64,000 nucleotides of DNA from NCBI GenBank assembly GCA_026929865.2, contig CM049410.1, positions 23,280,001 to 23,344,000 of the forward strand, written 5' to 3'. A program made the translations under genes and the position numbers. Positions 1,139 through 40,390 of this stretch are shown in pieces (position 1 is the first letter of the stretch; every line of letters begins with the position of its first letter). Source of the DNA: Hyperoplus lanceolatus. Its lineage: Eukaryota > Chordata > Actinopteri > Uranoscopiformes > Ammodytidae. The notes under the pieces are model-generated. The model saw only the letters and a list, made by a program, of their open reading frames with translations. It was not told the origin of the DNA and made no database searches.

Positions 1139-15954
<14,816 letters not shown>

Positions 15955-18626: not shown

Positions 18627-18935
18627 GTAAGTAAGTAAAATGTATTTATAAAAGCACATTTATGACAGTTTGCACTGTCCAAAGTGCTGTACATAGTGCA
18701 TTCAGTAGGTAAACAATGAAGGTAAAATAACAATAACCAAAATAAAAGACGTAAAGCCCATACATCCACATAAACACAGATAGTAGTGCAGAGGTAAGAT
18801 AGTTAATGGGGAGGAAACACCATATGGGTTTTGAGCCTTGATTTAAAGGCAGAAATGTAGGGGAATCACATTTGTCAGGTGGCAGTTGGTTCCACAAGCA
18901 GGGAGCAACTAGTGCAAAGTACATTTCTGAGAGTT
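18627..18935. mobile_element. Interspersed repeat nested in the Tigger-like element
   Basis: Begins with a (TAAG)n run, then tgtatttataaaagcac..ccaaagtgctgtaca, the same architecture as the repeat at 51020-51120 (tttatttatatagcac..caaagtgctttaca). Ends near tggttccacaagcagggagc. The family name is not assigned. Confidence 0.6.
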
Positions 18936-19180
18936 GTGCCAGTGGCATGGCTGTATACGCTGGTCACCAAAAGAAAGTGATTGTCTACAGTAGCTCAGAA
19001 GAGAGTGACATCTCAATTCCACTTAACGACACCACTGATGAGAGTTCAGATGGCCAGAAAGATGATGATGGTGACTTTGTCATTGTGAGCTTTGCAGGTA
19101 AAACCATTAGATCTGCTAGGCCTTGTTTAAGAAAATTGTCCTTCAAACTTTGTCAACTATTTACTTTAAATAAACCTTAA
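18872..19180 (+). pseudogene. Transposase C-terminal remnant
   Basis: 102-codon open frame within the inverted-repeat element. The 5' third is shared with the inserted repeat, so only about codons 27-80 (AVYAGHQKK onward) look like ancestral coding text: an acidic low-complexity linker followed by DFVIVSFAGK. No DDE catalytic region is present. It is a fragment, not a functional gene. Confidence 0.5.
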
Positions 19181-19494
19181 ATAAGTAATTGTCCAATGGA
19201 TTTGTCTTGCATTACAGTTTATGAGATATATAGCACTGGCACAATTCACCCCATGGTATTCTCTCCAACCGCACAACTTACACCACACCGGGGGCAAGTT
19301 GTGCATCAAGACAACTTTTTTTCCGAAAGCTATATTTCTTCAACAGTTTATTCCAGATCCAAAGTTTTTATTGCCAGGGATGCACAACACCCTGAAATAT
19401 ATGTACATATTTGAGTTGGAGACTTCACTGTCAAGGCCTTACTTTAAAGTCACTTTGAGTGAAAAGTTGCACAACTTAGGCCACTCTCCCCTAC

Positions 19495-20391
19495 AATAAT
19501 TTTGATTCATAATGTGGAATTCATTCATTTTCAACAATTATATCATAGGAAATAAGAAATATTTATTCCATAGCTTCCATATTATGTGACTCACAGCCCC
19601 AGGAGTTAATACTACACCGGACACTCCTCTGTATATATCAATTAATATTTTCATTGAAAATCCATGTGTCTAACAGCTGGAAGACACTAGATTTTATTTT
19701 TATTTTTTAACATCATTCTCCAGAATCGCTAACCCTACATTTTAAGATAATAAACTAAATGGCAATGTTAATACAAGTTAAGGTTTTGGATGTCTATCCA
19801 TCTCTGTTTCATACTGACAAACCTGCCAATGTAAAAAGAAAAAAAAGCCTGCTCTGCGTTTTTATCCTTCGATGCTTGTCAGAGCTCAGCCCTCAATTTA
19901 AGCACAATGATGCAACGCTATTGCCAGGGCCCCCTCCCAAATGTTTCTAGTAGCTTATCTTAGGGTTCCCTATTTCCCTGCATTGCCATAAAGTGTATCA
20001 TGAAAATATTGCTAAATGCTATGATGACGTATGAATAAATTAACTTAAAACTAAACACTGAAGGAACATTCCAATGTCAACGGTATTGAAGGGCACGATA
20101 AAATGAATTGCAGACAAAGCCTACTAGGCTATATAGAACACAGCACTAAGTGCTGTAGGCTGTTGTTCAGTGCCAGTGCAGTTGTCACGCGCTTGGTCTA
20201 AAACTCCCATCTGGTTTAAAAACTCCACGTATCAATACGTAAAATACTGACGTATTTTCAATGTGTAGGGAGGTGAATTAAAGCATGGCCCTAGATTGAC
20301 TTTCTTATGTCTGTCCTACTTTAGCCTCCTACTGTTTGGTGTCTGTTACTGCTCTGCTGTCTTGTCACTCACACACACACACACACACACG

Positions 20392-21850: not shown

Positions 21851-21960
21851 GCTGATTGGCTGCAGATGACATCACCTAGTGGAGATCTATTGTTGGTAAG
21901 GGGATGAGCTCATCGTTTAGAAGCCAGTTCTACAGAGCAGAGCGAGGACGCAGCACATAC
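21851..21960 (+). promoter_or_regulatory. Candidate promoter of the DUSP8-like gene
   Basis: An inverted CCAAT box (ATTGGC, 21855-21860) and a CRE-like TGACATCA (21867-21874) sit upstream of a GC-richer stretch that leads to a splice donor (ACA|GTGAGT at 22055/22056). This suggests a non-coding first exon of roughly 21.93-22.055 kb. No convincing TATA box. Confidence 0.45.
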
Positions 21961-22055
21961 AGCAGCAGGCAGCGGGACAGAAAGACTCTGCAAACCGTTC
22001 ACTGACACACGACAAGAGGACATCTACAGCGATTTTTACAACAGGAACATTAACA

Positions 22056-22252
22056 GTGAGTAACATTGCATGAGAAAAAAGGCTTTAAACCTGCATATTT
22101 AGTGACGCAAAGTGCTGTTTTCTGTGCTGGAATCTTTTCCCTGCATGCAATAATAGGAGAAGTTGCAGTGTGATAGTGTGACATAGTATTGTGTTTATTG
22201 TGTTATTTATCAGTGGAGTAGTAACATGTGTTTATCTGGTGCTGTGCTGCAG
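22056..22252 (+). other. 5' UTR intron of the DUSP8-like gene
   Basis: GTGAGT donor after the presumed leader exon and 'gctgcag' acceptor just before the coding exon. No start codon in frame lies upstream in the leader. Confidence 0.5.
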
Positions 22253-22254
22253 AT

Positions 22255-24363
22255 ATGGTGTGGTCCATGGAGACTGATGCGGAGCCCCCGCTGTCCGTCA
22301 TCCTGCCGAGGCTCTACCTCGGAGCGGAGAGAGACGTGACGCAGGTGAGAAAGTCTATTCATTCACCGCCCGGAATCACGGAAAAGTCATTTGCAAACCA
22401 TGTAACACGAAGCCTACAGAATTCTGATTTATCTTAAAATGATCAGCCTATTATTATTAAATATTATTACATTATCATTCCTGATGCATTCATTCATGAT
22501 AACTGTTTACTGTAGCCTACTATTTTATTTTTAAATGTGAAACTGTTTTGTTTTACGCATGCAGTTCATGTAGGCTATACAGTTGTCTGTTTCCATCTAC
22601 ATTTTAGAAACTGATCTCGTGTTTTGTAAAATCGGAATTTGACAATCACATAAAGAAAAACAATGTGCAAATATTTATCCGCCGCCCCCCCCCCCCCCTC
22701 TCTCTCTGTAGGACGGGCTTGCCTTCCATGGTATCTCCTATGTGTTGAGTGTGAGTCGCTGCAGCCCCCAGCCCTCCTTCTTGCCTGCCTCCAGATATAT
22801 GCGCATCCCCATCGACGACTCACTGTGGGCCGATCTGCTGCCATGGATACCGCAGGCTCTGCATTTCATCGGTCAGTATATAGCCGTCACTCACTTAAAA
22901 CATTGAACTCAAAGCTACAAGGAAGTACCTCTAGTCCAGACATTGCATCACTCTGACTGTTTGACTGACGTGTGTGTGTGTGTGTTTGTGTGTGTTCAGA
23001 TGAAGCCATATCCTCCGGAGCCTCTGTGTTGGTTCACTGTGCAGCAGGCATCTCCCGCTCTCCGGCCCTGGCTGTGGCCTACATCATGTACAGTCTGGGC
23101 ATGGACATGGACCAAGCATACAGGTATACACTCATCATATTGTCAAACACTTTTAACCTTTTTATTCATTTTAAGGCGAGACACTGCAGGTAAAAACATT
23201 TGTTTTATCCAACACTGGTCGATTTTGAGCATTTTGTCTATTTTGCCTTCATATGATGTTTTCTTTCTAGTATAAATCAAAGGTCCAAAATCAATGTACA
23301 CTTCGGTTATAATTTGACTAAACTTTGTCTGTTTGCGTCTGTGTATTTCTTCTATACAACCATCAACTTACATCAACTAAACTTTCAATAATCATTCTTA
23401 CCACTATTCCGAGTTTTATCTAAAGGTTTCTGGAAAAAAATATGTAATATGTAATAGAATTTTTTGTTTTATTTTAATGTGGGTAATCAACTGCCAAAGT
23501 TTCATGACTATATCTATTAGATAAAAATGTTACCCTACTCACCTGCAGTGTTTCGCCTTAAAGGAAAACGAATGGATAACTGCTCGGATAGTTTCATCTG
23601 ATGACTTATTACTACTAGCCCCTAACCCCCCCTCTGGTCTGTCCCTCCTCTTTAAAGGTTTGTCAAAGAGCGCCGACCCTCCATTTCCCCAAACTTCAAC
23701 TTCCTGGGTCAGCTGCAGCAGTTCCAGGGCACACTCACACACAAGTCCTCTGCTGCCCACCTACCCATCCAGCTGAATGACAACTACAGTGTCAACCACA
23801 CCAACACCATTCAACACAACATGAATCAGGAGGCCACACACATGGACAACACACAGCACACACACCCGGCTCAGCACAGAAGGCCATGTTCAGACATCGG
23901 CAGTTTCTCTGGGAAACATAAGACTCTTCATTTGACTCTCAATCTGAATCTGAACCAACAACAGCAGCAGTGTGCCGTTTCAGCTCCGAGCCCCTGTGAG
24001 CCGGTCCAACCAGAAGTAGCAGCAGAAGCAGCAGAGAAGCCCACACAACTACATCTCCCAGCATTCTCTGCTTCCTCTCTACGGGACAAACGCAAAAGTC
24101 TCACCCTTTCTCTGATGCCTTTGGGGACCGGCCCAATGGTTCCGGCTGTTGTTGAGGAGTCGAATACTGTGCGGAGGAACAGTGGCTGGTGCCGGCAGCA
24201 GAGCCAGACCCAGACCCAGGACCAAGGGAAGGAGCAGGGCCTCATGTCTCCCTTCAGCTTCAGCCTCAACAAGCTGCTGGACTGGGGGGAGAGGCTGCTG
24301 CTGGGGGGGCTCTCTGTCCAACCGGTCAGGATGGGAACGCCCGCACTGCCCTACAGGTGCTGA
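22255..24363 (+). CDS. DUSP8/16-like dual-specificity phosphatase without rhodanese domain
   Basis: Protein Tyr/Ser/Thr phosphatase, probably acting on MAP kinases. Coding exons: 22255-22344, 22712-22871, 23000-23123, 23658-24363 (stop TGA); 1080 nt, 359 aa. The phosphatase domain occupies about residues 13-150: general-acid candidate Asp66 in MRIPIDDS, then the signature HCAAGISRS with Cys97 and Arg103, then AYRFVKERRPSISPNFNFLGQL, almost the DUSP8/DUSP16 wording. Those enzymes carry an N-terminal Cdc25/rhodanese-like MAPK-binding domain. Here the domain starts 12 residues after the initiator Met and the upstream exon is non-coding. Residues 150-359 are low-complexity (His/Asn/Gln, Ser) until a compact tail FSFSLNKLLDWGERLLLGGL close to the end. 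The ATG at 22255 lies two bases into its exon. ATG at 22267 is an alternative start. Exact orthologue uncertain. Confidence 0.85.
23171..23561. mobile_element. Family C MITE with TTAA ends (phosphatase intron)
   Basis: TTAAGGCGAGACACTGCAGG at the left end and its inverted form CCTGCAGTGTTTCGCCTTAA at the right, with one mismatch. Internal text (gtataaatcaaaggtccaaa, gtctgtttgcgtctgt) recurs near 63.6 kb. Non-coding. Confidence 0.8.
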
Positions 24364-26717: not shown

Positions 26718-31792
<5,075 letters not shown>

Positions 31793-36377: not shown

Positions 36378-39300
36378 TTTATTGCGTCGATGGCCTCCAC
36401 CGTGTCAGTGTTGTGGATTGTGCTGCTGTCCCTGCTCCAGCTGGCCCAATGCTATGTGACCGACAGGCACGCTCCAGGTAAGAGCACACACCTCTTCTCA
36501 CTCACAGCTGGTCAGTCCACACTTAAAAGACACACACTATAGAATTTTAGAATCTTAACAACTGTATTGGTCTAATTTCTAGTCAGAATATATCATCTCG
36601 CTGTAAAAATAGAAGGACACAATCACCTCACAAGCAACATTTCAGTGAAATATAGGGATTAAAATTCAATACGCTTGATTTGTAAATGAGGATTGCAAGG
36701 GTGGCTTACAATGACACAAAAACTGTTCCTATTATTACTATAGTAGTAAAACATGCTCAACATAAGTATTTCCAGCCAGCTACAAGATATATCTCTGTCT
36801 TATTTTGTCTAATTTATTATCATTATCTTATATCAAGTAGGTGATTATCTTAAATCTAGAACAGTGCCACTAATGTAATGATGAGATTGACATTGACAAG
36901 TCGTGGGAAGTATACTGCTTTTGATCATTACAGGTTTACTATGATACATAAAACTTCCTAATACAAATACAATACAGTCACTGTATTGAATACACTACAA
37001 CTTGAGTTTTCCCAGCTAATTTCAAGATCTATTCTATCTTGAAAGGCTTAAATATTCCATATTATTTCAAGAAATCTTACCAGGTGAATTTTCACCTGTT
37101 CCTTTGGCAGAGTTGGTTTACTTTTTACAAGTGAAATACACCTGGTTTTGTTACACTTATTTTTTTAAGAGGCATTTTGTCCAGTGTACTGCCCTCCCAC
37201 ACAAAAGAGAAAAACAATCTATTCAGTACAGTATTGTTTCTTGTATTGTGTTCCAGAGTGCGGGGGTTGTATATACTGTAGTTCATCACTCATACGGTAT
37301 GACTGTATATATAATATGGCCCGTCTCTGCTGTAGGAGTTCCAGTGTTGGTGGACCAGCAGGCAGCCACCTCCTTCCTGTCCCGCACACTGCTCTACAAC
37401 AGCTGGGACTTTGAGGTGGTGGCGTCTGATAATCTGGAGAGGGAATGCAGGGAGGAGATCTGCAGCTATGAGGAGGCCAGAGAGGTGTTTGAAGACAATG
37501 ATAAGACGGTAATGCTGCCTCCATATACATAGACATGTTGAATGTAGAACTCCACAGCCTTTTGAAATATTTCATTATGTCTAATCTGACGTTGGTATCA
37601 CCGTAGAGCAGTGAAGGAAATAGGCGGGTGTTCGGGGCGAAGTGCCCATGAACAATTCAAAATTTCCATGGAAATTCATTTGACAGAAGATTTTAATGGC
37701 CCTGTGAATGTAAAATTATTTTGGGAGATTTTACTGTCCTTATATGCATCTGCAAAGCCAGAGTTAAAAATGGACTACCTGGCATATGTAGTACAGTACA
37801 TACTAAACTAGTATTCCATACTAGTTTACTACTACTACTACAATATCTTATCTGGGAGTGCAGTTGGCATTACATTGGGATTAAGGGGTATTAAAGGGTC
37901 TTTAAAAAGTCTTAAATGTGATTTGGAGAACCATGGTGGTACACTGTTAAAGGAAACATGAGATTTCCTTCTTTCATTGCTTTTGAAAGGGAGCTGTCAA
38001 AATAATGGGTAATAAAAGGTTCGGCATAGTAAGCTATGGCTTCAGGCTATACCTTTTTGGTTCTGTTTTGTCTTTTGTATATCTTTTGTTTCAATGCCAG
38101 AACAGCAATACCTTAATGTCTATTTATTCTTTATCTAAGTCTTGACTAAGTGAATAGTCAATCAGTTTAATGTTGACCGAAATAAACTAAACTAAACTAA
38201 ACCAAAATCATTCAAACCACGCAAAACTTTAGCTTAACAAGTGCATCTGTGAAGACTGAGATGTATGGGTTTATGTTGCATTATAATTTTGCCTTGTTGT
38301 TCTTTATTGTTTTTTTTGTCATTGTTGTTTTAATCTTTGTCTCTATGACTACATTATTATGTGATAAATGCCTAACCAGGGACCAGGACTGCTTATCCTC
38401 TAATCTGATTTTTCTCCATGTTTTAGAGCGTGTTTTGGGAGGACTATATCAGCAGTCACGGTAAATGCTTCAAAAATGTATTTGATCCATTGTCGTATTT
38501 GAAAATACACGAGTAACACTTAATACATCATTTTCTCCGCATTGCTGCCATTTTTTCTCAGAGGATAATCTGTCATTTTAGAATAGGTTGTTGTAAAGTA
38601 TGCTTAATGCCTTAAATGCTCTGTCAAAGTGTAGCCAAAATACATCCCTTACTACAGAAAAACATGCTGCTGCAAACTGTCACATATTTAGGAATACTGG
38701 ATACAACGCCAAACACTAGGAATATGTTGCAGTTACACAATTATACTGATGACTTAAAGGTTGGGTCAGCGATTCATGAGAATTTTTTTTGACAAAATCA
38801 CTTTTTGCCAAATCATATCTCCTCATATTTGTAGCCTATAATCAGCGCACTCACAGTACAGACAGGAAGGAGATTGTGAGGAGATATTCACTGATTTGAC
38901 AAAAAGTGATTTTTTCAACAAACATTCTCCGGAATCGCTTACCCCACCTTTAAGCCAATTAGACCCACACAAGACGGAGACGTGACTGACCTGCTGATTG
39001 CCTGGTATGAGAATTCTCCTTAATGTTAATGATGATATTTGTCTTTGAAGAATACAGTCCCAAAGTGGATGTGTCGGGGCTGGTGGCCGGCATCGTGGCT
39101 ATCCTAGTGTGTGCAGTCTTTGCCACTGTGGTGGGAATCTACTGCTACAAAGCCAAGAGGAACAAGAGTGGACGAAGGTCAGGATTGTTTTGCAGCAACA
39201 CCAGCACATCCCCAATGCCAAGTCTCTTTAATTTGTCACTTCCTGGGTGATCCCTTGTGCAGCCCCAGTCCTCGACACCTGTTCAAGAGAGACTGGAGCT

Positions 39301-40390
39301 TTTTTACTTCCTTTACAACCATTTTAATCAGAGGTATCACACTTTATAGTGTATTTTGCACAGCTCACTTAACCTGTGATGTGGAAATTAAAGGTGGAGT
39401 CAGCGATTCTGGAGGACGCTTGTTGTCAAAACCACTTTTTGTCAAAAATCATTGACTATCCCCTCACGATCAGCGCTACTTGTTCGTACTGTGTGTGTGC
39501 TGAAAAAAAAATCCAGTCTTAATAGCCTGACTCTGTAAACTGGTATATCAACAAAGGGGGCCCACCGTAGCCACCATAATGCCCGTTTACAAAGCCTTGG
39601 CTTTGTGTTATCACAGGATTTTTTGTCAGCTGGCCCACTGTAGCGGATCGTAAGGAGATATTCACTAATTTAGACAAAACCTGATTTTGACAACATACAT
39701 TCTCCAGAATCGCTGACTCCACCTTTATATTTACAAATATATTTCCACCAGATTTACTGAGCCCATTCATGTTTGCTTCAGACTTGATCAGATTTACAGC
39801 AACTTAACTTAGTTTTCTGAATTCTTCTGATTGCTTTGTGTTGCTCATTGTGCTGATCCAGAGCTCCAGTGAGGCTGGCAGCAGATGGGCGTCCGGCCCC
39901 AGAGACGGTGCCCCTGGGTGGGATCATTGCCCCGGGTCTACCCAGTTACAACGAGGCTCTGCACCACAGCGGGGTACACGATGCCCCACCACCACCATAC
40001 TCAGGGTAAGTGGATGCTCCAGTAGGCCTACTTATGAATCCAGGTCAGCATATCTGTAGGCTACAAGATCCAGCCATTATCTACCATGATGTAATGAGTG
40101 TCCCAAAATGCAATAAGTTGTTCCATTATGGACAAAAAGTTATTACATTAAGCGCTCAGCATTTTGTTAGATTATGGACCAGTAAGCCTACAACATTATA
40201 GGTTTAATTATTAGTATTTTTTCCATTATGGGTCGTTGTTACATTTTGGGCTCTTATACAACAAGCATCTTTATAGGAACAATAAATATATCACCCTGAC
40301 TGTTGGACCGTGACGCTCACAAAGATCTTTCCTCTCTCTGACCACAGGGGAGCGCCATCAGAGCCTGCTGATCCAGGAGACAACGAATGA
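36378..40390 (+). CDS. prrg2: Transmembrane Gla protein, proline-rich Gla 2
   Basis: Single-pass membrane protein with a vitamin-K-dependent gamma-carboxyglutamate domain outside and WW-binding motifs inside. The ATG is at 36390, 12 nt into its exon, and coding exons are 36390-36477, 37336-37508, 38427-38460, 39051-39177, 39862-40005, 40348-40390 (stop TGA); 609 nt, 202 aa, the length I recall for human PRRG2. Signal peptide about 1-21, propeptide ending near FLSR (43-46), Gla domain about 51-97 with LERECREEICSYEEAREVFE (63-82) carrying the Glu cluster and the Cys67/Cys72 pair, then the 34-nt exon coding SVFWEDYISSH, the short aromatic exon seen in Gla genes. Transmembrane segment about 107-131, then cytoplasmic LPSY (167-170) and PPPY (184-187). 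A non-coding first exon probably ends at 36260 (gacag|gtgagt). Confidence 0.93.
36478..37335 (+). other. prrg2 intron 1 with a dispersed repeat
   Basis: A segment at about 36976-37105 (ttcaagatctattctatctt, tttcaagaaatcttaccagg, tgaattttcacctgttcctt) recurs inverted at about 42755-42860 in prr12 intron 1. No coding support. Confidence 0.6.
37509..38426 (+). other. prrg2 intron 2
   Basis: AT-rich non-coding sequence of about 900 nt. I saw no recognisable element apart from a (TAAAC)n run near 38183-38204. Confidence 0.5.
38756..38952. mobile_element. Family A MITE, short copy (prrg2 intron 3)
   Basis: TAAAGGTTGGGTCAGCGATTC at the left (first 20 listed from 38756) and the inverted end cggaatcgcttaccccacct at the right, with 'tcacagtacagacagg' inside. 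Confidence 0.8.
39390..39725. mobile_element. Family A MITE, best-preserved full copy (prrg2 intron 4)
   Basis: AAAGGTGGAGTCAGCGATTC at 39390 and the exact inverted form GAATCGCTGACTCCACCTTT at the right end, 336 bp, flanked by TA on both sides (aatTA…TAtatt if the TA is counted as the duplication). Confidence 0.9.

Follow-up and report, generated by a model that had tools for sequence, protein, structure and literature searches.

Gene content of the window

The stretch of DNA under study (hereafter, the window) spans 64,000 nucleotides, C16:23280001-23344000, of the 806.7 Mb Hyperoplus lanceolatus assembly. Four exons on its + strand, between positions 22255 and 24363, are predicted to join in frame through GT-AG introns and to encode a protein of 359 amino acids followed by a stop codon; the coordinates 22255..24363 given in the initial annotation correspond to the coding part of this gene. 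The first coding exon (22253..22344) follows a predicted acceptor AG at 22251-22252, carries the ATG at 22255 and encodes residues 1-30. The second (22712..22871; residues 31-84) holds Asp66 (22817-22819), which we take to be the general acid, and the third (23000..23123; residues 84-125), terminating within the Arg codon of AYR, holds the phosphate-binding loop HCAAGISR (23035..23058) with the catalytic Cys97 and Arg103, as well as Tyr124 (23119..23121), the equivalent by alignment of Tyr271 of MKP7. The fourth (23658..24363; residues 125-359 and the stop codon) encodes the end of the catalytic domain and an unrelated tail. A non-coding first exon is likely to precede the coding part: it is predicted to end at 22055 on the + strand, within 21906..22055, with a donor GTGAGT at 22056, and in the joined sequence the frame ahead of 22255 contains no Met and runs back to a stop at 21905. 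An inverted CCAAT (21855) and a CRE/ATF-like TGACATCA (21867), covering 21855..21874 of the same strand and recognized by consensus match only, are possible promoter elements.

None of 2000 mononucleotide shuffles kept the frame of the tail open, and GC at third codon positions amounted to 0.68 in the gene compared to 0.33-0.43 in its three introns, so that the frame is more than chance would provide. Judged from its sequence, the gene appears to be an intact-looking, protein-coding and fast-changing relative of DUSP8/DUSP16, and it is presumably expressed. Rfam and tRNA scans returned no matches.

The initial annotation had placed this gene next to an AP2A1-RRAS-PRRG2-PRR12 block. Two of the neighbors were compared with human AP2A1/AP2A2 and RRAS/RRAS2 sequences that we assume to be accurate. 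In its ear and hinge pieces, the upstream neighbor is closer to AP2A1 than to AP2A2, at 42 vs 19 discriminating sites (30 matching neither) and with a score of 1130 vs 1052. RRAS held only weakly for the downstream Ras gene, discriminating sites favoring RRAS over RRAS2 by 15 to 10 (25 neither) but scores leaning to RRAS2 (alignment, 610 for RRAS vs 622; PDB bits, 255 vs 259). A Gla domain in 37020-37529 is consistent with prrg2, and PRR12 was assigned by reading alone, none of its three candidate frames in the window having a Pfam match.

Several repeats were also noted in the window. A stretch at 19185-19496 and one on C6 (L026:3556-3879) harbor near-alike frames (PMVFSP, AQLTPHRGQVV) and were recognized by eye as an interspersed repeat present on C16 and C6. 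A dispersed repeat, also picked out by eye, occurs on both strands at about 1416-1680, 10904-11122, 15302-15707, 31471-31668, 38826-38982 and 39373-39757, and looks like a short non-autonomous element. An open frame of 112 codons with an acidic end and no Pfam match (18842-19177) looks like a transposon remnant.

Membership of the DUSP8/16 group

The predicted protein matches PF00782 at residues 20-148 (E 5.4e-37). Both the AYRFVKERRPSISPNFNFLG and GISYVL wordings, on which the initial annotation had based its assignment to DUSP8/DUSP16, are present, and similarity to DUSP8 in the solved-structure match extends from residue 13 on, in agreement with the proposed start of the phosphatase domain 12 residues past the Met. 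Solved structures matched best were DUSP8 (159 bits) and DUSP16 (156 bits), followed at 110 bits by an entry named only tyrosine-protein phosphatase, while the best match without rhodanese-bearing kin reached 80 bits (2hcm), ahead of DUSP28 (75), DUSP22 (66) and DUSP3 (58); which of these structures have or lack a rhodanese domain is our own assignment. The catalytic domain is identical to that of human DUSP8 at about 78-81 of 145 positions and to that of DUSP16 at 70 of 144 (49-56%), compared to 107 of 145 (74%) between human DUSP8 and DUSP16. The human DUSP8 sequence in these alignments is presumed correct, its catalytic part agreeing with the rows of PDB 4jmk. The loop reads HCAAGISRSP in the window gene vs HCLAGISRSA in its relatives. 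A search of a viral collection yielded two distant relatives and that of a prokaryotic collection none; a single-sequence fold prediction was uninformative (mean pLDDT 34).

Phosphatase-domain trees, built from eight reference sequences in the first set and with six fish sequences added in another, grouped the window gene with DUSP8 and DUSP16 with support of 98.4/99 (eight references), 97.9/100 and 97.7/99 (six fish added). Placement with the DUSP1/4, DUSP6/7/9 or DUSP10 group had AU values of 0.025, 0.0075 and 0.0146, and SH values of 0.101, 0.026 and 0.046, the DUSP1/4 placement thus surviving the stricter SH test. Membership of the DUSP8/16 clade, as the initial annotation had it, is supported by these trees.

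An argument independent of branch lengths is provided by the introns. Those of the window gene lie after residue 30 (phase 0), in residue 84 (phase 1) and in residue 125 (phase 2), and all three have counterparts of matching position and phase in the dusp8 gene of the same genome; the second and third coding exons measure 160 and 124 bases in both genes. At all nine other MKP-type loci, typed by best matches (C2, C3:25.47, C5, C6:29.66, C8, C10, C13, C18 and C20), matches run unbroken across the places of the first and third introns, the query spans extending from 1-67 to 1-80 over the first place and from about 57-67 to 132-133 over the third; the first-place match at C6:29.66 includes a stop. 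Seven further DUSP-like matches ending near or before the third place were checked, one of which has a probable donor: the DUSP28-like phosphatase exon at C12:2143092-2143328 runs into GTGGGT, one base off the place where the window gene has its third intron. Because of this locus, the third intron alone is not exclusive, and the intron argument for DUSP8/16 membership therefore rests on the intron pair.

The dusp8 gene used in this comparison appears complete (C6:17629402-17668611), with exons for the KIM, the rhodanese domain and the catalytic domain and a tail that terminates in EIIEVS. Scanning the genome with residues 1-301 of human DUSP16 (63 candidates scored) recovered DUSP8/16-type exons at this dusp8 and in the window only; the scan did recover dusp8 exons at 45-75% identity, and found neither dusp16 nor a second dusp8 in an assembly that may be incomplete. 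dusp16 may have been lost in this fish, missed, or be missing from the assembly. DUSP10 was the best match of two dusp10-type loci, on C13 (L039) and C20 (L036), which are probably the teleost duplicates.

The window gene thus resembles DUSP8 (hVH5, M3/6) in its catalytic domain (81/145 identical to human) and in having the introns of the fish's own dusp8, and differs from it in the absence of a rhodanese/KIM match, in its unrelated tail and in its length of only 359 residues. It shares with DUSP16 (MKP7) the FNFL F-site, equivalents of Tyr271 and Asp268 and the catalytic residues, but is identical to it at only 70 of 144 positions and has no kinase-binding domain. With atypical small DUSPs it shares a phosphatase domain without a rhodanese domain; its match to them is far weaker (80 bits at best), and its gene structure is that of dusp8. 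It is real, and unusual for the well-known family of enzymes to which it belongs.

Position within the group and origin

The position of the gene inside the DUSP8/16 group is the least certain point of the analysis because its branch is long (0.73 substitutions per site), which could reflect changed substrates. The best tree set it beside DUSP8 and DUSP16 as a pair, with support of 71.3/77 for the eight references, 78.2/56, and 91.6/80 once six fish sequences were added. Neither pairing with DUSP8 (AU 0.363, 0.054 and 0.091 in three runs) nor pairing with DUSP16 (0.055, 0.162 and 0.213) reached rejection at 5%. The initial annotation had called the gene a second copy of DUSP8: it does stand as a paralog of the DUSP8/16 group distinct from the genome's own dusp8, whereas its being a copy of DUSP8 specifically is not established, the best tree placing it outside DUSP8+DUSP16. 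We consider it probable, if well short of certain, that the gene represents a further lineage of the DUSP8/DUSP16 group beside ap2a1 that has lost the rhodanese domain, kept the catalytic domain and would likely act as a JNK (perhaps p38) phosphatase through FNFL.

The strongest competitor to a separate lineage is a DUSP8 ohnolog issued from the early vertebrate duplications, the basal look of which would result from fast evolution. Identity to DUSP8 (81/145) is above that to DUSP16 (70/144), sites separating the two favor DUSP8 by 13 to 5 (20 neither), or by 8 to 4 (12 neither) where fish and human DUSP8 were required to agree, and ap2a1 adjoins the gene. The branch of DUSP16, however, is longer than that of DUSP8, so that an excess of DUSP8-like sites is expected from this alone; the best tree leaves the gene outside DUSP8+DUSP16 (91.6/80), and AU values for its union with DUSP8 fell to 0.054 and 0.091, though to 0.363 in another run. 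On balance we regard this origin as unlikely, while deserving to be weighed. A teleost-only duplicate of dusp8 relocated beside ap2a1 would account for the finding of just one other DUSP8/16-type locus by the DUSP16 1-301 scan, but seems quite improbable given that the fish's own dusp8 is less similar to the window gene (74/145 identical) than human DUSP8 is (78/145) and that pairing with fish dusp8 had the lowest AU value among five trees (0.0665, still above 0.05). That the gene is decaying and freed from selection, as its long branch and a tail for which no relatives are known might suggest, is scarcely credible in view of its four open exons, GT-AG splice sites, kept catalytic residues and coding-like third-position GC.

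We infer that the gene probably arose when the genome was duplicated early in vertebrate history. Besides the neighbor of the window gene, a single AP2A locus was found in the genome; it lies on C1 (5.2 Mb) and dusp8 on C6, so that 11p-type linkage is not visible in this fish. Considering the fit to AP2A1, the mixed evidence for RRAS, the Gla domain and the presumed human map positions on 11p and 19q, it is plausible that the gene is a 2R ohnolog retained in a 19q13.33-type block. Human DUSP16 is reported to map to 12p12 (PMC9676401). No gene of this kind is described among the matches listed in our literature searches, which does not make it unpublished: it could well be catalogued in fish databases with a DUSP8-like name. 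The portions consulted of a survey of yellow catfish DUSPs name only dusp1-7 and 10 (PMC11598348), and those of a paper on 2R ohnologs mention no DUSP, AP2A or RRAS (PMC3411107). The gene bears on the number of DUSP8/16 genes in the vertebrate ancestor, and should be of interest to specialists of phosphatases and of genome duplication.

Docking domain, tail and proposed function

In fish dusp8, the rhodanese domain finishes (GGFAAFSSCFPGLCEGKP...) and the catalytic domain starts within a single exon. Its counterpart in the window is predicted to begin two bases before the ATG and encodes the catalytic start without a rhodanese end. Rhodanese queries from human DUSP8 and DUSP16 gave best E values of 2.8 and 0.82 against the whole window, and tblastn at E 0.1 found no rhodanese match in the preceding 20 kb. 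The best match of two rhodanese exons of fish dusp8 in the window (E 0.006) fell between exons of ap2a1, on the strand opposite to the gene, and we disbelieved it. These results agree with the rhodanese-less protein described in the initial annotation, and the gene appears to have lost the N-terminal rhodanese/KIM docking domain. Since its structure is that of dusp8, the missing domain reads as a loss and not as kinship to the atypical DUSPs.

A rhodanese domain encoded by upstream exons that our scans overlooked has two points in its favor. The first rhodanese exon of dusp8 precedes the catalytic start by ~38 kb (C6:17629402 vs 17667266), and the genome scan with human DUSP16 1-301, which found rhodanese exons at six MKP loci (C2, C3, C6 dusp8, C10, C18 and C20), overlooked them at four of the ten MKP-type loci besides that of the window (C5, C6:29.66, C8 and C13), whence its limited reach. 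Yet that scan found no rhodanese exon on C16, tblastn found none in the window and the 20 kb upstream, the window exon matching the rhodanese-end exon of dusp8 is devoid of that end, and ap2a1, on the same strand, occupies most of the 14.5 kb upstream, leaving hidden exons a highly improbable explanation.

The tail, called novel in the initial annotation, is unlike the DUSP8/16 tails. Real alignment scores to the tails of human DUSP8 and DUSP16 were attained by 37 and 84 of 300 shuffles, and 178 of 300 shuffles scored as well as the real comparison to the fish dusp8 tail, leading us to reject similarity to any of them. LKRSFSLDIKS and the EIIEVS end, presumably features of the human DUSP8/16 tails, are both found in fish dusp8 and absent from the tail of the window protein. 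Five patterns, written as regular expressions that we assume to describe D-motifs adequately, were tried on the tail. They highlighted the candidate D-motif KHKTLHLTL (23914..23940, + strand; residues 211-219) and RKSLTLSL (24091..24114, + strand; residues 270-277), a candidate JNK D-motif of the NFAT4 type, a class named in PMC4670726. The match level of the NFAT4-type RKSLTLSL was attained in 5.1% of 5000 shuffles and that of a JIP1-type KPTQLHL in 2.7%, while the four MEF2A-type matches at two places of the tail and the four generic matches were equaled in 0.24% and 0.2% of shuffles, respectively. FxFP is absent from the tail, and further runs of basic residues followed by alternating leucines are present. 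A role of these sites in JNK docking is suggestive only, a lead of modest odds and weaker than the FNFL motif of the catalytic domain. A more elaborate scenario, in which a third DUSP8/16-type gene from the early vertebrate duplications was kept in fish and lost in mammals, dropped its rhodanese domain and gained JNK-docking motifs in its tail (RKSLTLSL, KHKTLHLTL), and became a JNK phosphatase with selectivity arising from the F-site and the tail alone, is one that we entertain tentatively and with some doubt.

With the docking domain apparently lost, the kinase is probably found through the catalytic domain and perhaps the new tail. Cys97, Arg103, Asp66, Tyr124 and FNFL (residues 138-141; 23695..23706, + strand) align with Cys244, Arg250, Asp213, Tyr271 and FNFL 285-288 of MKP7, where FNFL serves as an F-site JNK-docking motif (PMC4802042). 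According to the same source, of the parts of MKP7, only the catalytic one bound JNK1; kcat on phospho-JNK1 is 0.028 per s for the catalytic domain of the human enzyme alone vs 0.029 per s with the kinase-binding domain; cellular phospho-JNK is little changed by the F285D, F287D and L288D mutants and still reduced by D268A and N286A; and inactivation of JNK requires the FNFL motif, not the docking domain (PMC4802042). Tyr271 is described as important for catalysis and MAPK binding (PMC9676401). The docking domain contributes affinity for p38 and its removal has no drastic effect on catalysis (PMC4802042), so that loss of the rhodanese domain may weaken, not abolish, p38 binding. By analogy, the product of the window gene is likely a JNK/p38 phosphatase relying on the kept FNFL motif: it would dephosphorylate JNK, and perhaps p38, through Cys97, with FNFL, a site within the catalytic domain, holding the kinase in place of a rhodanese KIM. 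Both activity and substrate are deduced here from MKP7. PMC4802042 attributes an N-terminal kinase-binding domain to each of the ten MKPs that are catalytically active in mammals. A natural MKP devoid of it would offer an evolutionary test of the laboratory result on MKP7, namely which contacts suffice for JNK recognition. Puckered of Drosophila is not known to carry a rhodanese domain either. It provides a parallel in being described as a JNK phosphatase (PMC5618612).
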